The position numbers and the translations under genes are program-made. From positions 1 through 20,783 of the IMG/VR virus record IMGVR_UViG_3300025810_000116: 20,783 nucleotides of DNA, one strand, 5' to 3'. Shown here piece by piece: positions 70-11,477 of the stretch; position 1 is the stretch's first letter, and every line of letters starts with the position of its first letter. The notes beneath the pieces are model-generated. The model had not been told where the DNA came from. It was given only the letters and a program-made list of their open reading frames with translations, and made no database searches. The stretch is from a virus.

Positions 70-351
70 ATGAAAAAGAAAAAAGGTGGTGGACTTAAAA
101 AATGGTTTAAAGAAGACTGGGTAGATATATCTACAGGTAAACCATGTGGAAGAAAATCAGCTAGTAAATCAAAAAGAAAGTATCCTGTATGTAGACCAAA
201 GGCAGTTGCAAGTAGAATGACTGCAGGACAAAAGGCTGCAGCAGTAAAAAGAAAAAGGGCAAAGACTAATGTAGGACCTAAACCAACTTCTATTAGATAT
301 CCTATTAGTGCAAGTGGACGAAAACAAAAAGTAAAAAAGAAAAGGGGATAA
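70..351 (+). CDS. Small, strongly basic conserved phage protein
   Basis: This 93-residue protein is dominated by Lys and Arg, with almost no acidic residues after position 20. A conserved-looking core reads GGGLKKWFKEDWVDI, then GKPCGR and YPVCRP, with two Cys (about 26 and 41) in Gly/Pro-rich turns. From memory it resembles the small viral family listed as DUF5872 (GLKxWFxExWVD...GKPCGR...YPxCRP). That match was not computed. The charge suggests nucleic-acid binding, perhaps to DNA in the capsid or to a DNA-binding machine. The ATG follows the upstream TAG with no gap, and GAAGAG about 7 bases upstream can serve as the ribosome site. No catalytic motif is visible. Confidence 0.85.
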   Translation: MKKKKGGGLKKWFKEDWVDISTGKPCGRKSASKSKRKYPVCRPKAVASRMTAGQKAAAVKRKRAKTNVGPKPTSIRYPISASGRKQKVKKKRG

Positions 352-832: not shown

Positions 833-955
833 ATGAAAAAATCTAAAATGGGTTATGCTGGTGGCAAAAAAGTTAAGATGGGTTATGCTGGTGGTAAAAA
901 AGTTAAAATGATGAAAGCTGGTGGTAAAGTTCCACTTATATATGGACCAAAATAA
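833..955 (+). CDS. 40-residue Gly/Lys repeat peptide
   Basis: A 40-codon ORF runs from ATG at 833 to TAA at 953-955. The ribosome site AAAGGAG (821-827) is five bases before the ATG, immediately after the previous gene's stop. The peptide is almost wholly a repeat: after MKKS it reads KMGYAGGKKV twice in tandem, then KMMKAGGKV and a short PLIYGPK end. It has no acidic residue. The GG-K motif also appears near the C-termini of the larger basic proteins at 6091-8629, so this may be a free-standing version of that motif. The next gene starts two bases after this stop and has no strong ribosome site of its own, so translation of the peptide may also feed that gene by coupling. Function unknown. 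Confidence 0.7.
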   Translation: MKKSKMGYAGGKKVKMGYAGGKKVKMMKAGGKVPLIYGPK

Positions 956-1655: not shown

Positions 1656-1705
1656 AGTAACATTAAACATTGCGTAATCGTTTGGTTCGCATCAACGGAG
1701 AAAAA

Positions 1706-2731
1706 ATGGAAGTAGAAAATAAAGAAGAATGGAGTGACATTGACACTTCAAAACCTGAATCTAAAGAAGAAGACAAAGTAGACTTTGAGGTTGAAAAAAC
1801 TTCTGAAGATAAAGAAGAAAAGGTTGAAGCTGTAGTTGAAGAACAACCTGTAGCTGAAACTAAAACTGAAACGAAGAAGGAAGATACTCAACCAGAGGAA
1901 CAACCTGATGAAGCTAAAGACATTGAGTCTGAAAGAGCACAAAAAAGAATACGTCAGTTAGTTCGTCAAAGAAAAGAAAAGGAAGAAGAAGTTGCCAGAC
2001 TTTTAGCTGATAAACAAGAACTTGAAAAAAGACTTACTACAAACCAAAGTAATCAATTTGATTTAACTAAAACAAGTCTTGAGTCTCAAGAAAAAAGTTT
2101 AGAGAATCAACTTAATCTTGCTAAACAAAACTACTTAGATGCTTTTGAAAAAGATGATAAGAGTCAATTATTAAAAGCACAAGAAGCTTTAAATGAAGCA
2201 CAGATTAATTTAAATAGTGTAAAAACAAATAAGGTAAATTTTGATAAAGATTACGAGAATTACCAGAACAGTATTAAACAACAGCCTGTTCAACAATCTC
2301 AACCTCAACAACCCCAATACGACCCTAAAGCAGTCGCATGGGCAGAAAATAATGAGTGGTTTGGTCAGGATAAAATAATGACTGCAGCAGCTTTAGCTTT
2401 AGATGCTCAGTTAAAAGAAGAAGGTTTTAATCCTGCAGATGATGATTTCTATAAAGAAGTTGATGTTAGATTAAAGGATGCATTTCCAAATAAATTTAAA
2501 ACATCTGAACAGGAAACTCAACAAGTTCGTCAGAAGGCTACGTCAAGTCCTTCCCAAGTGGTAGCAGGAACATCTCGCACTCCTGCCTCCAAAAAAATCA
2601 AGCTAAGTCAAGAAGACGTTAGGTTGGCTAATAAATGGAATATACCACTAGATAGGTATGCAAAAGAAAAGTCTAAAGTAGAGACTGGAGAAGAGTATAC
2701 TACAATAACAACACAAATGCGTAGGAGTTAA
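1706..2731 (+). CDS. Scaffold-like head assembly protein
   Basis: This 341-residue protein is very acidic at its N-terminus (Glu/Lys/Asp-rich, about 1-90). A long helical, coiled-coil-prone Gln/Lys/Glu-rich centre follows (about 90-200), then a Gln/Pro linker (about 200-215) and a more ordered C-terminal region with WAENNEWFGQDKIMTAAALA. That layout, and the position two genes ahead of cement and capsid genes, is typical of scaffolding proteins. These line the inside of the procapsid and leave before DNA packaging. In related phages the WxxxNxWFG-type C-terminal segment is commonly seen in scaffold-like genes (recall, not searched). The ATG at 1706 is chosen because ACGGAG (1695-1700) lies six bases upstream. 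An in-frame TTG at 1670 would add 12 residues but has no ribosome site. Confidence 0.8.
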   Translation: MEVENKEEWSDIDTSKPESKEEDKVDFEVEKTSEDKEEKVEAVVEEQPVAETKTETKKEDTQPEEQPDEAKDIESERAQKRIRQLVRQRKEKEEEVARLLADKQELEKRLTTNQSNQFDLTKTSLESQEKSLENQLNLAKQNYLDAFEKDDKSQLLKAQEALNEAQINLNSVKTNKVNFDKDYENYQNSIKQQPVQQSQPQQPQYDPKAVAWAENNEWFGQDKIMTAAALALDAQLKEEGFNPADDDFYKEVDVRLKDAFPNKFKTSEQETQQVRQKATSSPSQVVAGTSRTPASKKIKLSQEDVRLANKWNIPLDRYAKEKSKVETGEEYTTITTQMRRS

Positions 2732-3865: not shown

Positions 3866-4777
3866 ATGGCTATAAATAGAGCAAGTATTGCAAAACAACT
3901 TCTTCCAGGACTTAATGCTGTATTTGGTGTTGAGTATGGTGATGTTAATGACGAACATACACCCCTATTTGAAACTGAAAATTCAGATAGGTCTTTTGAA
4001 GAAGAAGTGCTATTCACAGGATTTGGCACAGCTCCAGTAAAATCTGAAGGTGCTGCTGTTTCTTTTGATGATGCACAAGAATCGTTCACAGCTAGATATA
4101 ACCACGAAACAGTGGCTTTAGCTTTTTCAATCACTGAAGAAGCAATGGAAGATAATCTATATGATACTTTCGCTAAAGTTCGTTCTCGTGCACTAGCAAG
4201 AGCAATGGCTAACACTAAACAAGTAAAAGCAGCAGCTATTTTTAATAATGGCTTCACTGCTGGTGATTCTGCAATTGGAGATGGTCAAGCATTCTTCTCT
4301 GCATCTCACCCAGTTGTTGGTGGTGGCAACCAAAGTAACCTATTAGCTGCAGCAGATTTAGCTGAAGCAGCTTTGGAAACTGCGTTAATTTCAATTGATG
4401 GAACTAAAGATGACAGAGGTATCTTAATTGGTGCACAAGCTCAATCTTTACACATTCCGTCTGACCTTAAATTTACTGCTGATAGGCTTCTAGCTTCTCC
4501 AGGTAAAGTTGGGTCTGCAAACAACGACATTAACGCAATTAGAAACATGGGAGTAATACCTGGTGGTTATATGGTAAACAGAAGGTTTACAGACACCAAT
4601 GCTTACTTCATTAAAACTGACGTACCTAATGGTACTAAAATGTTTGTAAGAGTTCCTCTACAAACTAAAATGGAACCAGATTTTGATACTGGTAACGTCA
4701 GATTTAAAGCAAGAGAGAGATACTCTTTTGGTGTTTCTGATTGGAGAGGATTCTTTGGTTCTGCAGGTGGCAGCTAG
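3866..4777 (+). CDS. Major capsid protein, HK97 fold
   Basis: This 303-residue protein looks like the major head subunit of a tailed phage. Supporting features are an N-terminal helix with LLPGLNAVFGVEYGDV, a segment ARYNHETVALAFSITEEAMEDN (about 74-95) like the E-loop/spine start of Mu gpT-type capsids, and the motif FFSASHPVVGGGNQSN (about 143-158) shared by many HK97-fold capsids. The C-terminal strand region ends in RYSFGVSDWRGFFGSAG. Length and position after scaffold and cement genes agree. It assembles the icosahedral shell. Expression is expected to be very high: a T7 gene 10-like ribosome site lies ahead and an intrinsic terminator immediately follows. No separate protease gene or N-terminal delta domain is visible, consistent with assembly on a separate scaffold. 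Confidence 0.92.
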   Translation: MAINRASIAKQLLPGLNAVFGVEYGDVNDEHTPLFETENSDRSFEEEVLFTGFGTAPVKSEGAAVSFDDAQESFTARYNHETVALAFSITEEAMEDNLYDTFAKVRSRALARAMANTKQVKAAAIFNNGFTAGDSAIGDGQAFFSASHPVVGGGNQSNLLAAADLAEAALETALISIDGTKDDRGILIGAQAQSLHIPSDLKFTADRLLASPGKVGSANNDINAIRNMGVIPGGYMVNRRFTDTNAYFIKTDVPNGTKMFVRVPLQTKMEPDFDTGNVRFKARERYSFGVSDWRGFFGSAGGS

Positions 4778-5125: not shown

Positions 5126-5434
5126 ATGCCTACAAAAACTAAAAAGAAAAAATCAAAAGGCATGGGAATTAAGACTAGTGTAAAGTCAGGTAATTTTTTA
5201 CCCACTAGCAAAGGTGCAGGTATGACAAAGAAGGGTGTTGCTGCTTATCGTAAAGCAAACCCAGGTTCTAAATTAAAGACTGCAGTAACTGAATCAAAAC
5301 CTACAGGAAAAAGAGCAAAGAGAAGAAAATCATTTTGTGCTCGTTCAGCAGGACAAGCTAAGATGCATAACATAAGCTGTAAGAAAACTCCAAAGAAAAG
5401 AATTTGTGCAGCTCGTAGAAGATGGAAATGTTAG
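5126..5434 (+). CDS. Basic Cys-containing small protein (DUF6321-like)
   Basis: This 102-residue protein has Lys/Arg-rich ends and almost no acidic residues. The C-terminal half reads KRAKRRKSFCARSAGQAKMH followed by a Cys-Lys-Lys, then RICAARRRWKC, so four Cys sit in Arg/Lys-rich surroundings and the last residue is Cys. The RRKSFCAR...RRWKC signature agrees with my memory of a viral family named DUF6321, also reported in large eukaryotic viruses (not computed). It may bind nucleic acid, with the Cys residues holding a metal or disulfides. It starts five bases after the previous gene and its stop abuts the next ATG (TAGATG), so it belongs to the connector operon. Precise role unknown. Confidence 0.85.
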   Translation: MPTKTKKKKSKGMGIKTSVKSGNFLPTSKGAGMTKKGVAAYRKANPGSKLKTAVTESKPTGKRAKRRKSFCARSAGQAKMHNISCKKTPKKRICAARRRWKC

Positions 5435-6091
5435 ATGGCAGATTTTACAACTTTAACAACAGAGATAGTAAATACAACTGAGAATAATGCTCAAGAGTTC
5501 TTAGACCAAATACCTAACATTGTTAATAGGGCAGAAGAAAGATTAACAGATGAATTAGATGATTATGGTTTAGTAACTTATACATCAGTAGCAGTATCAC
5601 AAGGTAATAATATTGTTACCTTACCAACTGGTACAAGAATAGTAAAAAATTTTAATGTAGATATTAATGGAGCAAAGACAAGTATACTTTTAAAGACTGA
5701 TGAATATTTAAGAGATTACTGGAATGTGTCAGCTTCAACAGGTGAGCCAAAGTATTATGCACATAAAGATAATACAACAATAATGATTGCACCTACACCT
5801 TCATCAACAAGTAATGGTGAAGTAGTACATGTAACTAGACCAACAACATTAACATCAGCTTCACCTGATAATTATTTTACACAGTTTTGTTATGACGCAT
5901 TGTTTAATGCCTGTATGGTAGAGTCTTACATCTTTATGAAGAACTTTCAGATTGTTCCTTTATTTGAACAACGATATCAAACTTCAATACAGACTGTAAG
6001 AAATAGAGCCAGAAGATTTAGACGTGACGATATGACAAGACCTGCAAGTCCTGCAGGAGCAGATAACACAGTCGTAGATGGGAGTAACTAA
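5435..6091 (+). CDS. Head-tail adaptor-like protein, copy 1
   Basis: This 218-residue protein has N-terminal helices with a long acidic helix (about 15-43). A beta region follows with VAVSQGNNIVTLPTGT (about 52-67), the segment KTDEYLRDYW (about 87-96), and GEPKYYAH...IMIAPTP. A C-terminal helical part contains YDALFNACMVES, and the end is Arg-rich (NRARRFRRDD). This layout matches adaptor proteins that extend the portal in short-tailed phages (P22 gp4 / SU10 adaptor type). They bind the portal's exit and carry the hub. A second protein with the same order of segments is encoded at 8634, so one may be the true adaptor and the other a neck or tail paralogue. It starts directly after the stop of the basic Cys protein. 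Assignment is by pattern, not by search. Confidence 0.7.
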   Translation: MADFTTLTTEIVNTTENNAQEFLDQIPNIVNRAEERLTDELDDYGLVTYTSVAVSQGNNIVTLPTGTRIVKNFNVDINGAKTSILLKTDEYLRDYWNVSASTGEPKYYAHKDNTTIMIAPTPSSTSNGEVVHVTRPTTLTSASPDNYFTQFCYDALFNACMVESYIFMKNFQIVPLFEQRYQTSIQTVRNRARRFRRDDMTRPASPAGADNTVVDGSN

Positions 6092-6666
6092 TGGCTAGAG
6101 AAAAAATAACAAAACCAGGACAATTAGATTTATTTTTAAAAAAAGAAGGTGTATATAATATTGATGGTGATAAAGTAAAACCTGAAGATTTAAAAGGTTA
6201 TTACAAAGATAAATATCTTTCCTATAACCATGATGATGTTGAATATAAAAATCGTGATAATTTAGCTAAAGGAATTAAAGCAAAAAAACTTTTAGGACTT
6301 GAATTATCAGAAAAAGATAAAAATTTTAAAAGTAATAAACAAATAAAAGCTATAAGAGAAAAAGAAATAATTAAAGAAAAAGAAAGAGAGAGAAAAAGAA
6401 TAGAGGAGAGAAAAAAGATAATACAAAAACATAAGGAGAGTAGAGGTATAAGAACTAATACTAAATTACAACAAAAAATAGCTAAAGAATTAGAGAAAGC
6501 AAAAAAAATTGGTTCAAAAGTAATGCCAAAAAGACTTAAAATATTAAAGTCTTTATTAACTAAAAATAAAAACACCAAACCTAAACCTCCTACTAAAAAG
6601 AAATCTGGTGGTAGATTAAATGATGGTACTGCATTTATTAAAAGTTTATATAAGGATAAATTATAA
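6091..6666 (+). CDS. Lys-rich coiled-coil protein with GG-R motif (cassette 1)
   Basis: In this 191-residue protein about 30% of residues are Lys or Arg. The centre (about 85-115) is a continuous highly charged helix of Glu/Lys/Arg, probably a single alpha-helix or coiled coil. The end contains PPTKKKSGGRLNDGTAFIKS, carrying the GG-R motif found in the following genes. There are no Cys, no membrane segment and no enzyme motif. Its ATG overlaps the adaptor's stop as TAATG, so it is translated by re-initiation. It is the first of five basic proteins in a row, set between the two adaptor-like genes. A virion-internal or DNA-associated role is plausible from charge and place. No function is recognised. 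Confidence 0.8.
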   Translation: MAREKITKPGQLDLFLKKEGVYNIDGDKVKPEDLKGYYKDKYLSYNHDDVEYKNRDNLAKGIKAKKLLGLELSEKDKNFKSNKQIKAIREKEIIKEKERERKRIEERKKIIQKHKESRGIRTNTKLQQKIAKELEKAKKIGSKVMPKRLKILKSLLTKNKNTKPKPPTKKKSGGRLNDGTAFIKSLYKDKL

Positions 6667-7127
6667 TGGTTATTAGTAGAAGTTCAATACCACAACAGAT
6701 AAGTAAACCTGGTGTAAAGAAAAAGAAAAAAAGTTTATATAGTAAAGCTAAAGACCAAATAAAAAAATTGGATATAACTAAAAAAATGCCTGACAGTTTA
6801 AAAAAAAATCCTATTCGTAAAGCTTTAAGTAAAGCTGCAAGATTTGGTTTAAGAACTGCAACAGGAAGTAATCCATTAGGCTTTGGTATATATTCTGGGT
6901 TAGATGCACTTGAGGAATATAATAAACCTGAAAATAAATTAAAAAGATTAAAAAGACAAAAAAAAGTTTTAAAAAAAAGAAGAACTGGAACTGATAGACA
7001 AAGAGCAAGACATGGTTCAGGAGTTCTTACTGCTGCTGAAGAAAGAGAACTAGATAGAAAACAAAAAGAACTTGAAGAAGTTGTAAATAAATACATGGGT
7101 GGTTCATTAAATACAAGGAGAAAGTAA
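6666..7127 (+). CDS. Lys-rich protein with SIPQQISKPG and GG motifs (cassette 2)
   Basis: This 153-residue basic protein begins MVISRSSIPQQISKPG, an N-terminal motif I have seen in small marine-phage proteins. A run of Lys follows, then a helix KALSKAARFGLRTATGSNPL with some hydrophobic character (about 56-80). The coiled Lys/Arg/Glu region (about 88-145) ends in YMGGSLNTRRK. The GG here is followed by Ser rather than Lys/Arg, the weakest match to the cassette motif. The gene begins with the overlap TAATG on the previous stop and ends with the same overlap to the next. Charge suggests nucleic-acid or capsid-interior contact. Function unknown. Confidence 0.8.
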   Translation: MVISRSSIPQQISKPGVKKKKKSLYSKAKDQIKKLDITKKMPDSLKKNPIRKALSKAARFGLRTATGSNPLGFGIYSGLDALEEYNKPENKLKRLKRQKKVLKKRRTGTDRQRARHGSGVLTAAEERELDRKQKELEEVVNKYMGGSLNTRRK

Positions 7128-7639
7128 TGTCTGAAAAGAAAATAAAAACAAAATTTCCAGGAATTGTAGGTAAAACATTTGATAAGTTACCTGCAAGTAA
7201 ACAAAAAGAAGTTGTTAAGTTTATGAAAACAATTCCTGAATATGCAAATAAAACTGTAACAGAATTAAAAAGAATAGCTAAAAAAGTATATACAAAACTA
7301 CCTACAAGAAGACCTAAGAAAAATGAAAGAGAACCACTCTTTGACCCTTCAGATAGAATCTTAGCTAAAGATGGTGACGTTACTATGGTAAATAGACCTT
7401 CAAAACTTAAAGCTGATATTGAAGAAATAAAAGGACTTGGTGGTTTTAAATTAGTTGGACCTAAATCTGTAAAAGAAAATAAGAAAACAGGTAAATTAGA
7501 AGAATCACTAAAAACAGGTCGTATGGATAAACCTTCTAGTGATACACCTGTATTTGATGTAGGTAAAGGTCTACCTCAAATGAATAAAGGTGGAAGAGTT
7601 CGTAGCTATCGTGGTTATGGAAAAGCCAGACGTGGTTAA
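7127..7639 (+). CDS. Basic protein with C-terminal GG-RV...RG tail (cassette 3)
   Basis: This 170-residue protein opens with KKIKTKFPGIVGKTFDKLPA and helical basic stretches (about 1-70). A more mixed centre follows with EREPLFDPSDRILAKDGDV, a possible small folded part. The end (from about 151) reads MNKGGRVRSYRGYGKARRG, Gly/Arg-rich and nearly free of hydrophobic residues. The tail resembles those of the next two genes (GG-x-V/L, then Arg-Gly and Gly-Lys spacing). Its start overlaps the previous stop as TAATG. The tail looks like a separate flexible appendage that could bind nucleic acid or a common virion partner. No known domain is recognised. Confidence 0.82.
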   Translation: MSEKKIKTKFPGIVGKTFDKLPASKQKEVVKFMKTIPEYANKTVTELKRIAKKVYTKLPTRRPKKNEREPLFDPSDRILAKDGDVTMVNRPSKLKADIEEIKGLGGFKLVGPKSVKENKKTGKLEESLKTGRMDKPSSDTPVFDVGKGLPQMNKGGRVRSYRGYGKARRG

Positions 7640-7661
7640 TAAACATTGAAAGGAGAAACAG

Positions 7662-8141
7662 ATGGCAGAACAAAATAAAAAAAAAGTAAGATTTTCTTCA
7701 GAAGAAAAATCTCTTATAAATAAATTAAATAAGATAATTAAAGTTAGAAAAGGTATACCTAAATTAGTTGCTGAAGCTATGGTTGAACCAGCTAAAAAAT
7801 TAGCAGAAAAATATACAGGAGATACACTAACAAAAATATTAAAAGGTATATCTAAACATAAAGATAAAATAGAAGATGTACCTGGTTATAAAGCAGATGT
7901 AGTAAAAAGAAAAGCTGCTAATGCTAAAAATATTAGAATGAAAAATGTACAACTTGAAGATGCAGAAAGATTTCAAAAAAGTACAACTGGTGGAGCTGAA
8001 GCATTTCAAGAACCTTATATGAAACCATTAACATCAAGAAAATCTGGTGGTAAAGTTAAAAAATTACAATCTGGTGGTAGAGTTGGTGCACCTAGAGGTA
8101 CTGGAGCTGCTTTACGAGGATTTGGGAAAGGATATAAATAA
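7662..8141 (+). CDS. Basic protein with double GG tail (cassette 4)
   Basis: This 159-residue protein has helical Lys-rich segments at about 1-110 (for example LINKLNKIIKVRKGIPKLVA). A short linker follows, then a tail from about 126 with two GG motifs: SRKSGGKVKKLQSGGRVGAP followed by RGTGAALRGFGKGYK. The second half of this tail closely resembles the end of the next protein. It is the only cassette gene with a true gap before it (7640-7661), which holds the strong ribosome site AAAGGAG. It therefore starts translation independently, and the gene after it follows by TAATG overlap. No membrane segment, Cys or enzyme motif is visible. Function unknown. I recall similar GTGAALRG endings in marine-phage hypothetical proteins. 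Confidence 0.82.
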   Translation: MAEQNKKKVRFSSEEKSLINKLNKIIKVRKGIPKLVAEAMVEPAKKLAEKYTGDTLTKILKGISKHKDKIEDVPGYKADVVKRKAANAKNIRMKNVQLEDAERFQKSTTGGAEAFQEPYMKPLTSRKSGGKVKKLQSGGRVGAPRGTGAALRGFGKGYK

Positions 8142-8629
8142 TGGGTAGATTTTTTAAATCAGATAAAAAACAATCAGGCTATGGTCAAGCTGCAGATAAA
8201 AGAGCAACATCTGGTAAATTTAGTGATTTTCCTACTAAGATTGCTAAAAAAATTGACACACTACAAAATAAAATTGATACTATAGTAGATACGTATAAAG
8301 CTGTAGGTAAATCTCTTCCTATTAGTAAAAAAAATCTTATTAAAACTTTAAAAAATAAAATTCAAGGTCTTAAAATAGGAGATAAAAAACAGTACGAAAT
8401 AAAAGCTACACAACAAAATCTTCAGACTACTAAAAATAATCCAAGATTAAAAGCACAAATGGATGAGATGAATAAAGAAAATAATAAGATAAAACAATAT
8501 CTTAAAGAAGGTATTATTACAAAAGGTGAAGCTAAAAAAATGGGACAAGCATTATCTAGAAAAAAAGGTGGTAAACTAAGAGGTATGGGTAAAGCACTAC
8601 GTGGTGGTGGTAAAGTAATGAGAGGTTAA
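8141..8629 (+). CDS. Basic protein with double GG tail (cassette 5)
   Basis: This 162-residue protein begins MGRFFKSDKKQSGYGQAADK. A helical part follows with likely coiled-coil phasing (about 35-62, KKIDTLQNKIDTIVDTYKAV), and a second helix (about 95-125) is Lys/Asn/Gln-rich. The tail from about 137 is SRKKGGKLRGMGKALRGGGK followed by VMRG. It matches cassette 4's tail in order: GG, then (K/R)-(V/L), Arg-Gly, Gly-x-A-L-R-G, Gly-x-G-K. The upstream two thirds of the two proteins do not look alike, which suggests a transferable C-terminal module. It starts by TAATG overlap and is followed after four bases by the second adaptor-like gene. Function unknown. Confidence 0.82.
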   Translation: MGRFFKSDKKQSGYGQAADKRATSGKFSDFPTKIAKKIDTLQNKIDTIVDTYKAVGKSLPISKKNLIKTLKNKIQGLKIGDKKQYEIKATQQNLQTTKNNPRLKAQMDEMNKENNKIKQYLKEGIITKGEAKKMGQALSRKKGGKLRGMGKALRGGGKVMRG

Positions 8630-8633
8630 ATAA

Positions 8634-9317
8634 ATGGCAACTAATAATACGTCAGGCACTTATGACTTTAATTTAGAAATAGGTGACGTTATACAGGAAG
8701 CTACTGAGATGATTGGTGGTGAAGTAACTCTTGGTGAAGAACCAAGAAGTGCTAGACGTTCAATTAATCTTATATTAAATGACTGGCAAAATAGAGGTGT
8801 TTGTTTATGGACAACAAATACAACTATTGTGAGTATTGCTGCAAGTACATCTCAAGTAAGTTTAGGTAGTCATGTAAGTGACATAATGCAAGTTGTTGTC
8901 AATAGAGATAATACAGATTTAGAAATGACTCGTATATCGTATGAAGAATATTTAAAAGTTCCTAATAAAGGACAAACAGGTAGACCTTCACAATATGCAG
9001 TTAAAAGATTTGGTGATAATGTACAATTATATCTATGGTCATTATCAGATGTTAATACTGATAAACTAAAAATTGAAAAGATTGATTATATGCAAGACGT
9101 AAATAAATCTGCAATACAAAATGCAGATATGCCTAGAAGATTTTTACCTGCATTAACAACTGGTCTAGCATATTATATGTCATTAAAAAGACCAGGAATA
9201 ACTGAAGCAAGAGCAAAGTTTTTAAAAGCTGAGTACGAAGAAAGACTTGGTTTTGCAATGACTGAAGATAAAGAACGTGCATCACTTTACATTACACCTA
9301 AGATGGGTGTAATATAA
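8634..9317 (+). CDS. Head-tail adaptor-like protein, copy 2
   Basis: This 227-residue protein has N-terminal helices with EIGDVIQEATEMIGGEVTLG and RSARRSINLILNDWQNRGV (about 40-58). The ARRxLNxxLxxWxxxGxxLW pattern is characteristic of P22 gp4-type adaptor proteins. A strand region follows with SIAASTSQVSLGSHVSDIMQ (about 67-86), the segment SYEEYLKVPNKGQTGRPSQYAV (described at about 102-123), and a C-terminal helical part with MPRRFLPALTTGLAYYMSLK. In the virion such proteins form a ring under the portal. It is a better family match than the copy at 5435, so this is the preferred candidate for the real adaptor. The order of segments is shared between the two. It overlaps the following gene as TAATG. 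Confidence 0.8.
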   Translation: MATNNTSGTYDFNLEIGDVIQEATEMIGGEVTLGEEPRSARRSINLILNDWQNRGVCLWTTNTTIVSIAASTSQVSLGSHVSDIMQVVVNRDNTDLEMTRISYEEYLKVPNKGQTGRPSQYAVKRFGDNVQLYLWSLSDVNTDKLKIEKIDYMQDVNKSAIQNADMPRRFLPALTTGLAYYMSLKRPGITEARAKFLKAEYEERLGFAMTEDKERASLYITPKMGVI

Positions 9318-9607
9318 TGGCAGTAGGTAAAAGAGCAAAAGCAGTATGTGACATATGTGGATTTGTTTATCCTCATAATGTTATGAAGTTAAATTCTTAT
9401 GGCTTATTAGTTTGCCCTACTGATTTTGATGGTGCATATGATGAAAATAATCATCCACAAAATAAAGCACCTAATGTAAAAGATGACGAAACGATTAGAA
9501 ACCCAAGACCTACTCAAAATGAAGCTTTGACTACTTGGGCAAATCAGAATACTAACTGGGAAGCAACGTCCCAATTTTGGAACTTAGTGAGTAATACAAA
9601 TGCCTGA
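9317..9607 (+). CDS. Small zinc-knuckle-like phage protein
   Basis: This 96-residue protein has Cys 11 and 14 in AVCDICGFVYPHNVMKL, and a third Cys at about 33 in LLVCPTDFDG. Family relatives I recall carry a second CxxC (CPECW-type) and bind zinc. Here the fourth position is Asp 36 (CPTD), so metal binding would need Asp or the nearby His 20 or His 43. The rest is hydrophilic, with NHPQNKAPNVKDDETIRNPR and a Trp-containing end. In marine phages this small gene usually sits between adaptor and fibre genes, so a tail or neck accessory role is inferred. Its start overlaps the adaptor stop (TAATG), and its last 8 bases overlap the fibre gene. Confidence 0.85.
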   Translation: MAVGKRAKAVCDICGFVYPHNVMKLNSYGLLVCPTDFDGAYDENNHPQNKAPNVKDDETIRNPRPTQNEALTTWANQNTNWEATSQFWNLVSNTNA

Positions 9608-11477
9608 TTTAACTGGACAAGAAATATCAAATTCATATAAGCGATTAATGCAAGTAAAGACTTCAGCTAATGAAGGAATTACTACAACTCTAAGGACTAT
9701 TCAGTCAGGTGACAATGCAGACTCACCTTTACAACTCAACAACTCTACATTAAATGTTAATGGTACTTTTGCAATAGGTGGTGTAAATCTAACTGCAACT
9801 GTATCGTCTTTAAATGCAATTGTAGACATTACAGGTGGTGCAGGTTATGTAGTTGTTTCAGGTACTGATGTTTATAAAAGAAGTTTTTCTGCAGGTAATG
9901 GTATTAACATTACTAACAATGATGGTACTGAGGGTAACACAGGTATTGCCTTAACAAGTACAATAAGTAACATTCAAGATTTTGGTGCTTCAGCAGTTTC
10001 AGCTAATACATTAAATGTTACAGGAACTATGACAGTTTCCTCAATGAGTGTTACTGATTTTAATGCAGCTACTGTAAGTGCTACTTTATTAAAAGGTAAT
10101 AATGCAACAATTGTAAGTACAGTATCAGCAGCATTTTTTGTAGGTGATGGTTCAGGTTTAACAAATGTTCCTTCTGCTGAAGGTGGAACTATGAAATTTA
10201 TTACTGCAGGTACAGGTATGAATGCAACTGTAAATGCAGGAACAACTGCTACAATTCCTGTAAGTGGTACATTAAATTTAGATGCTGACCAATCATTTGG
10301 TACAGTTTCAGTTTCAACAGGTTTAGTTGTTCCACAAGGAGCAGCAACTTTTTCAGTTCCTATTAGTGGTACTTCAGCAGTCTTTACAGGTGATGTATCA
10401 GCAGCTAATGTTTTTGCAGGAACAAATGTTTATGTAGGTGGTACAGCAGTTCCAACTGCATCAGATGTTGCAGCAGTATCTGCATTAACTAAAACTAATT
10501 TAGATTCTATAACTTCAATTAATACAGTTGTTGCAAATGTTTCAGCCTTGACATCAGTTAATAAAGCTGATATAATAGTAAATGTTTCAGCTATTGCTTC
10601 AATTAATGCAATCATAGGTGATGGTGGTAACTATGCAACTTCTGCTGAACTTGCTACAGTATCTGCAGCCCTTGCAACTTCAATAGGTAATTCAAATACA
10701 AACATAGCTGCAGTATCAGTTTTAACTTCAGTTAATAAAGCTGACATTGCAACAAATGTAGCAGCGATTACAAGTATTAATACTGTAGTTGATAATTTAG
10801 ATTTTGCTACAAGTGCTGAGTTAGCAACTGTATCGTCAGCATTAGCAACAAGTATTGGTAATAGTAATACTAATATAGCTGCAGTTTCAGTATTAACATC
10901 TGTAAACAAAGCTGATATAGCTACCAATGTAGCAGCCATTACAAGTATTAATACAGTTGTTGATGGACTAGACTTTGCAACAAGTGCAGAACTAGCTACA
11001 GTTTCTTCAGCATTAGCTACAAGTATTGCCAATCATTTACCACTAGCAGGTGGTACAATAACAGGTACAGTATCTGCTCAATCAGTTTATGTAAGTGCAT
11101 TAGGTGCAAATACTACAGCAACTTTAGGTAAACGAATTAGAATGGATGGAGCTGCAGTAGCTGACATTGTAAGTTTAACAGATGGTGCAAGTATTGCGAT
11201 TAACTTTAATGATGGACAAAACTTTGCAGTACAATTAACAGATAACAGAACTTTAGAAAATCCTACAAACTGTGTTCCAGGTCAGACAGGAAGTATATTT
11301 GTAATACAAGATGGAACTGGTAGTAGAACTTTATCATTTGGAGCTAACTATAAATTCCCTGGTGGAACTGCTCCAACATTATCAACAGGTGCAAGTGCAT
11401 GTGATAGAATTGACTATATTACATTTACGTCAAGCAACGTACATGCAGTAGCCACATTGAATGTGAGTACAGCTTAA
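9600..11477 (+). CDS. Tail fibre protein with 57-residue repeats
   Basis: This 625-residue protein begins DLTGQEISNSYKRLMQVKTS, a common N-terminus of podovirus fibres that dock to the tail. A long Thr/Ser/Ala/Val-rich low-complexity shaft follows, with many VSA/TVS steps and a GDGSGLTNV motif (about 182-190) typical of fibre folds. At residues 346-459 a 57-residue unit occurs twice, with a partial third copy starting at 460 and a diverged copy just before. The C-terminal module (541-625) is shared with the other fibre at 16080. There 39 of the first 60 positions are identical without gaps, including VIQDGTGSRT. The product is probably a trimeric host-binding fibre. It starts within the end of the zinc-knuckle gene. 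Confidence 0.8.
   Translation: MPDLTGQEISNSYKRLMQVKTSANEGITTTLRTIQSGDNADSPLQLNNSTLNVNGTFAIGGVNLTATVSSLNAIVDITGGAGYVVVSGTDVYKRSFSAGNGINITNNDGTEGNTGIALTSTISNIQDFGASAVSANTLNVTGTMTVSSMSVTDFNAATVSATLLKGNNATIVSTVSAAFFVGDGSGLTNVPSAEGGTMKFITAGTGMNATVNAGTTATIPVSGTLNLDADQSFGTVSVSTGLVVPQGAATFSVPISGTSAVFTGDVSAANVFAGTNVYVGGTAVPTASDVAAVSALTKTNLDSITSINTVVANVSALTSVNKADIIVNVSAIASINAIIGDGGNYATSAELATVSAALATSIGNSNTNIAAVSVLTSVNKADIATNVAAITSINTVVDNLDFATSAELATVSSALATSIGNSNTNIAAVSVLTSVNKADIATNVAAITSINTVVDGLDFATSAELATVSSALATSIANHLPLAGGTITGTVSAQSVYVSALGANTTATLGKRIRMDGAAVADIVSLTDGASIAINFNDGQNFAVQLTDNRTLENPTNCVPGQTGSIFVIQDGTGSRTLSFGANYKFPGGTAPTLSTGASACDRIDYITFTSSNVHAVATLNVSTA
10635..11030 (+). repeat. 171-bp tandem repeat inside the fibre gene
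   Basis: Copies run 10635-10805 and 10806-10976, with a partial copy from 10977 to about 11030. A diverged copy in the same 171-base register probably precedes (from 10464). Each full copy encodes 57 residues beginning ATSAELATVS and containing VNKADIATNVAAITSINTVV. The two full copies differ in 33 of 57 codons but in only two amino acids (Ala/Ser, Asn/Gly). The repeat is therefore conserved at the protein level and well scrambled at the DNA level. It most likely forms repeating structural turns of the fibre shaft. Confidence 0.9.

Follow-up and report, generated by a model that had tools for sequence, protein, structure and literature searches.

The internal proteins (Ip) of phage T4 have only a packaging leader in common, and once injected they block distinct GmrSD restriction enzymes (PMC3012670, PMC12373910). 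In this work, a block of five adjacent genes for small, strongly basic proteins with short C-terminal tails was analysed in a 20,783-base virus contig, IMGVR_UViG_3300025810_000116 (the whole stretch is called the window), which represents part of an HTVC023P-related phage genome. The block recalls the T4 Ip loci and their capsid targeting sequence (CTS) in having a constant short tag on unrelated small bodies, encoded by clustered genes that are polymorphic in close relatives (PMC3012670, PMC12373910). Encapsulins offer a second likeness because a C-terminal peptide directs unrelated cargo into an HK97-fold shell (PMC7925596). The window would fit this pattern in the C-terminal position of its tags and in its Mu gpT-like capsid protein, loading being a prediction here. 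Encapsulin systems are cellular, and we know of no encapsulin cargo peptides with basic RG repeats. Hypervariable islands are also documented in related marine phages, with internal virion proteins among the genes mentioned; in the part of that source consulted, host-recognition genes are stressed and neither an inter-adaptor island nor a common C-terminal tag is mentioned (PMC3909814). The principle of a constant tag on a variable body is already known. As in T4, a short conserved tag was found on otherwise unrelated bodies (five tail classes spread over about 20 body families). The core of the tag is C-terminal in 303 cases and N-terminal in none, the sequences showing no CTS. The island is thus like the T4 locus in its anatomy and is not a member of that family; no sequence relation between the tags of the window and the T4 CTS was seen.

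The island and its two boundaries comprise the following features (aa, amino acids; K+R, lysine plus arginine).

5435..6091, + strand: adaptor 1, SU10_adaptor PF24175 (Pfam E 7.4e-19), upstream boundary of the island
6091..6666, + strand: island gene 1, 191 aa, net charge +31, K+R 30.4%, tail T1 at about 6604-6663, SGGRLNDGTAFIKSLYKDKL
6666..7127, + strand: island gene 2, 153 aa, net charge +28, K+R 28.1%, tail T2 at about 7089-7124, KYMGGSLNTRRK
7127..7639, + strand: island gene 3, 170 aa, net charge +24, K+R 25.9%, tail T3 at about 7583-7636, NKGGRVRSYRGYGKARRG
7662..8141, + strand: island gene 4, 159 aa, net charge +23, K+R 24.5%, tail T4 at about 8070-8138, SGGRVGAPRGTGAALRGFGKGYK
8141..8629, + strand: island gene 5, 162 aa, net charge +28, K+R 25.3%, tail T5 at about 8561-8626, KKGGKLRGMGKALRGGGKVMRG
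8634..9317, + strand: adaptor 2, SU10_adaptor PF24175 (Pfam E 3.9e-6), downstream boundary of the island

The original prediction, made from the sequence of the window, had described five adjacent Lys/Arg-rich genes between two adaptor-like genes, the first with about 30% K+R and none with a recognised domain. Its coordinates and both flanking PF24175 genes were right (the adaptors score 69.4 and 27.9 bits against a curated cut-off of 27), the figure for gene 1 agrees with the measured value, and scans with Pfam and PHROGs gave no convincing domain in the five proteins. Most other open reading frames (ORFs) of the window have 3-17% K+R, and only two small ones, 70-351 and 5126-5434, are equally basic. 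The start codon overlaps the preceding stop codon in four of the five island genes, and a ribosome-binding-like AAAGGAG stands ahead of gene 4. The G+C content is 0.23-0.31 within the block versus 0.32-0.39 elsewhere; an AT-rich codon bias may be the source of extra lysine, but it does not explain the Gly/Arg pattern of the tails. When the 28 C-terminal residues were removed, no pair of the five bodies matched better than E=0.15, and genes 4 and 5 matched each other (E 0.003) only with the tails included, which bears out the claim that these two share a tail on unrelated bodies. Genes 1 and 2 had been taken to carry shorter forms of the tail of genes 3-5; this did not hold, and they carry instead two other recurrent tails, SGGRLNDGTAFIKSLYKDKL and KYMGGSLNTRRK. 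AlphaFold models gave a low-confidence helical N-terminal half for gene 3 (mean predicted local distance difference test, pLDDT, 62) and a small helical body with a low-confidence tail for gene 5 (mean pLDDT 71); the tail is unordered in both.

The relation between tails and bodies was followed in 80 loci retrieved with adaptor 2 as query, from which 38 contigs with both adaptors present and adaptor 2 at least 84% identical were compared together with the window. In these 39 islands the space between the adaptors ranges from 734 to 2542 base pairs and holds 1-6 genes. The 112 unique island proteins fall into about 20 body families (single-linkage BLAST), and nearly all end in one of five recurrent C-terminal tail classes, which follow the order T1/T2, T3, T4, T5 with few exceptions; only four of the 112 have no assigned tail. 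These island and tail counts are descriptive only, since the classes were defined after viewing the data and some contigs are near-duplicates. At least seven body families carry T1, at least six T3, at least four T4 and at least two T5 (a tail present in 25 ORFs), while T2 occurs on one family only. Moreover, one body of about 195 residues ends in T4 in contig L125, in T3 in L127 and in T5 in L130. The tails are modular and keep a slot order, and the bodies that precede them are exchangeable. The bounding genes are conserved, adaptor 1 with 96-100% identity in the closest contigs and adaptor 2 with 84-100% across the contigs compared.

Island proteins could instead be parts of the head-to-tail junction, that is, minor connector, cement or plug subunits whose tail hooks into adaptor, portal or capsid interfaces. 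The location between two adaptors and the overlapping start and stop codons in four of the five genes would suit such a role. So would the phrog_16759 module, which forms the N-terminus of three tailed proteins (L022:911-1375, L080:6784-7200, L075:2563-3003) and also begins proteins annotated as virion structural in the jumbo phages 121Q, GAP32 and CBB; it resembles phiKZ PHIKZ165.1. Fixed connectors should, however, co-evolve with their partners, whereas the islands vary from one to six genes and turn over their bodies beside adaptors that remain 84-100% identical, and the part of HTVC027P that was examined lacks a clear RG-tailed ORF. We consider this explanation rather improbable.

The spread of the tails beyond the group of the window was followed with a profile built solely from the T4 and T5 tails of that group and searched against 6,366 distinct ORFs of other contigs. 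The matches at E<=0.01 number 13; every one stops no more than 15 residues short of the C-terminus, and they belong to 10 body clusters. Reversed and block-shuffled sequences gave 0 matches each. After five iterations 61 ORFs from 48 loci and 29 body clusters were found, and the controls still gave 0. A profile search had been proposed with the original prediction, and its result is not confined to close homologues of one family; together with the body that carries three different tails, the many unrelated bodies found by the profile uphold the claim that the tail is transferable. A regular expression for the RG tail matched 140 of 6659 distinct ORF C-termini, versus a mean of 15.6 in shuffled sequences; in the 45 residues just before the C-terminal part the count was 1 of 2228. 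The strict core expression was found at the C-terminus of 303 and at the N-terminus of 0 among 14,897 distinct ORFs. The only N-terminal RG core seen belongs to phage DSL-LC04 (L326:1315-1542, 75 aa, MAGRGMGCATRGGGAV), where it adjoins a Pam1-type adaptor; this locus lies outside the 14,897-ORF count. A DNA pattern scan for KGGKVRGxGxA gave at least 120 stretches, and the matches listed included three more kinds of tail, A (KGGKVRGAGIARKGVRPAKMR), B (KVRGTGAATKGLYARGPMA) and C (IARGCGAVMENRRKKTLYT), frequently several per contig in neighbouring genes. Contig G003, selected through the DNA pattern, contained no tailed ORF and was excluded.

A tblastn search of named phages with the tail only gave nothing, for which the low-complexity filter is probably responsible, and among named phages full-length HTVC023P gp51 and gp53 gave self-matches only. 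No convincing tail was seen in HMO-2011, HTVC010P, phage C75C1, marine virus AG-345-E15 or the BUCT555 region. Neither a type B tailed protein nor adaptor 2 had a relative in sequence searches of the PDB; with a profile of 90 tailed proteins, one weak match to a ribosomal protein was obtained and taken as chance. Scans of the tailed proteins with NCBIfam and PADLOC gave scattered weak single matches that were not believed. No description of the tails was found in the family libraries or in the open-licence literature searched, so an earlier mention elsewhere is possible.

Codon positions bear on whether the peptide or the DNA is conserved. If the tails were a by-product of recombination, they would be short conserved DNA crossover sites between variable genes, and the peptide would have no function. 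The DNA of T5 and T4 is highly conserved within the group of the window (for T5, 2% of third positions differ versus 2% of first and second positions; for T4, 12% versus 2.5%), and the body-tail joins resemble deletion fusions. On the other hand, in T3 of the same group 35% of third positions differ versus 4% of first and second positions. Phages outside the group retain the type A core as a peptide with free synonymous variation, its 100 distinct DNA versions varying by about 1.0-1.9 bits at third positions, in a core where several residues were fixed by the search pattern itself. In addition, a crossover site would not account for a core that is C-terminal in 303 ORFs and N-terminal in none. 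For the type A core and T3, the codon comparison points to constraint at the level of the protein, and recombination sites alone appear a very unlikely explanation.

The tails are located in the head-assembly block. The whole HTVC023P genome encodes four RG tails (gp30, gp32, gp51, gp53); terminase and adaptor 2 enclose them all, and the replication and metabolic regions are free of them. Nine long contigs in which head genes could be recognised contain 22 tailed ORFs, of which 21 are situated between portal and adaptors. With HTVC023P included, 25 of 26 tails fall in the head-assembly block, which is estimated to take up between a fifth and a third of a contig; these 10 long contigs or genomes are a non-random sample, picked by capsid, adaptor or tail matches. 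The 26th tail belongs to L304:15174-16262, a protein of 362 aa with a LysM domain (Pfam E 1.7e-4), and the gene directly downstream is read by us as an M15-type peptidase. This RG-tailed protein may therefore act on the cell wall. HTVC023P and HTVC027P are Pelagibacter phages, and the major capsid protein (MCP) of the window is 57-58% identical to those of HTVC023P, HTVC027P, phage 023Pt_psg01 and Roseobacter phage CRP-902. In HTVC023P two tailed genes lie directly upstream of adaptor 2; in HTVC027P, 023Pt_psg01 and CRP-902 the adaptor 2 family protein precedes adaptor 1, and no such block lies between them. The order in the window is DUF5872, scaffold-like protein, capsid, DUF6321, adaptor 1, the five basic ORFs, adaptor 2, and then tail and fibre genes. 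The features outside the island are as follows.

70..351, + strand: DUF5872 companion basic module, 93 aa, net charge +29 (PF19197 E 1.6e-7)
833..955, + strand: tiny basic GG-repeat ORF (predicted), 40 aa, MKKSKMGYAGGKKVKMGYAGGKKVKMMKAGGKVPLIYGPK, possibly a further member
1670..2731, + strand: putative scaffold with an acidic N-terminal third, from its position upstream of the MCP
3866..4777, + strand: MCP, Mu gpT-like (Phage_capsid_4 E 8.9e-14), 57% identical to that of HTVC023P
5126..5434, + strand: DUF6321 companion basic module, 102 aa, net charge +32 (PF19846 E 2e-14)

The companion basic modules link the tails to virions by association only. DUF6321, DUF5872 and phrog_27331, all modules of marine phages, are like the tails in being small and basic and in occurring in the same region, sometimes on the same proteins as RG tails; they differ in sequence and are longer (about 36-75 aa), and no homology to the tails was seen. 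DUF6321 and an RG-type tail stand together in one protein (L215), the phrog_27331-type module is present on RG-tailed proteins, and phrog_23735 matches both the ORF at 70..351 and an RG-tailed protein in L057. The protein encoded at 5126-5434 and the C-terminus of ORF137 (DUF6321) of cyanophage S-CREM2 share 69% identity across 74 aa; the C-terminal phrog_27331-type module of S-CREM2 ORF160 matches an RGCG-tailed protein of L207 with 81% identity across 36 residues. Both ORF137 and ORF160 were detected in S-CREM2 virions by mass spectrometry (PMC10665884, Table 3). Since no clear RG tail is encoded by S-CREM2 itself, the support from its proteome is limited to the companion modules. Several S-CREM2 proteins (L320, L323), namely ORF6, ORF13, ORF14, ORF136, ORF154 and more weakly ORF12, have a common MK[DNR][FL]..FL.E-like N-terminal start. 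This start, as we read it, recalls the T4 CTS. These virion-detected proteins comprise small proteins and enzymes, the latter including a SAM hydrolase, an APH-like kinase and a cytidylyltransferase (PMC10665884), and the common start may explain how the S-CREM2 enzymes are packaged. The tiny ORF 833-955 consists of GYAGGKKVK repeats, a style like that of the GG-repeat proteins at other tailed loci.

Because everything here is basic, the strongest rival is that these are internal DNA-condensing proteins, like protamines or core proteins, in which body and tail would jointly neutralise the packaged DNA; the tail would bind DNA and be no specific loading signal, and the bodies would vary since only charge matters. 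Net charges range from +23 to +31 in the five proteins (153-191 aa), whose tails are mostly of the Gly/Arg/Lys kind; the DUF5872 and DUF6321 modules are also strongly basic, the genes lie in the head block, and in T4 the lysines of internal proteins contact DNA phosphates (PMC3012670). However, charge alone needs neither exact slot-specific sequences with invariant Gly, Ala and hydrophobic positions nor a fixed order of classes and tails retained through body swaps, and T1 (ending in GTAFIKSLYKDKL) is not an RG-type tail. We judge DNA condensation to be rather unlikely, and both the connector-part and the recombination explanations to be less likely than it.

We hypothesize that a pelagiphage-like podovirus carries, in this block, a hypervariable island of cargo genes, each of which would encode a small basic body and a short C-terminal address tag. 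The tag would be recognised during head assembly by the scaffold, the capsid interior, the portal or an adaptor site, and the protein would then enter the virion whatever its body. The scaffold at 1670..2731, with net charges of -8 and -4 in its first and second 50-residue blocks, is a candidate partner for basic cargo. Recombination would swap the bodies in the space bounded by the two fixed adaptor genes, and these bodies would probably be delivered alongside the DNA and might, for example, counter host defences or work at the cell envelope. The functions suggested in the original prediction (loading into the capsid, binding of DNA or ejection) are consistent with the head-block location and with the companion modules in S-CREM2 virions. 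It is probable that the island proteins are packaged in the virion. That the tail is the signal for this loading is a tentative proposal, about as credible as the whole reading of a virion-loading C-terminal tag on exchangeable internal proteins of the T4 kind; delivery into the host is put forward with somewhat greater reserve, and the roles suggested for the bodies are tentative as well.

Several observations weigh against virion loading by the tag. The basic, Gly-rich RG tails fit DNA binding equally well, and within the group of the window the DNA of T5 is near-invariant beside adaptor 2, so that flanking homology may explain part of the conservation of this tail. For phages with exactly these tails no virion proteome could be found, and the bodies gave no match to known effector or anti-defence families. 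A fold search with the models of genes 3 and 5 gave no significant match, the models being weak. The T4 tag is N-terminal, belongs to one class and is cleaved by the prohead protease, while the tags of the window are C-terminal, mostly Gly/Arg/Lys-rich and of several slot-specific classes, with no cleavage known; no prohead protease was recognised among the window genes looked at, and no systematic search for one was made. The T4 CTS is of the MKT[YF].. type.

Two further observations concern other genes of the window. A 171-bp tandem repeat in two copies lies at 10695-11028, within the fibre-like ORF 9600-11477. By eye, the protein encoded at 958-1617 resembles HTVC023P gp44 (L002:14672-15316), whose annotation as PurM looks doubtful, and the gene takes a different position in the window and in HTVC023P.

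A common tail would turn scattered hypothetical proteins into one testable class, candidates for packaged and injected proteins that can be recognised by their last 25 residues. If loading is borne out, the tail would be the C-terminal equivalent of the T4 capsid targeting sequence and a probe for delivered proteins, possibly with anti-defence factors among them, in viruses that infect SAR11 and other bacteria of aquatic habitats. It is conceivable, if rather doubtful as yet, that many aquatic tailed phages have a common C-terminal sorting code of several short, mostly Gly/Arg/Lys tail classes, each bound to a slot in the head operon, which would load exchangeable proteins for delivery into the host.

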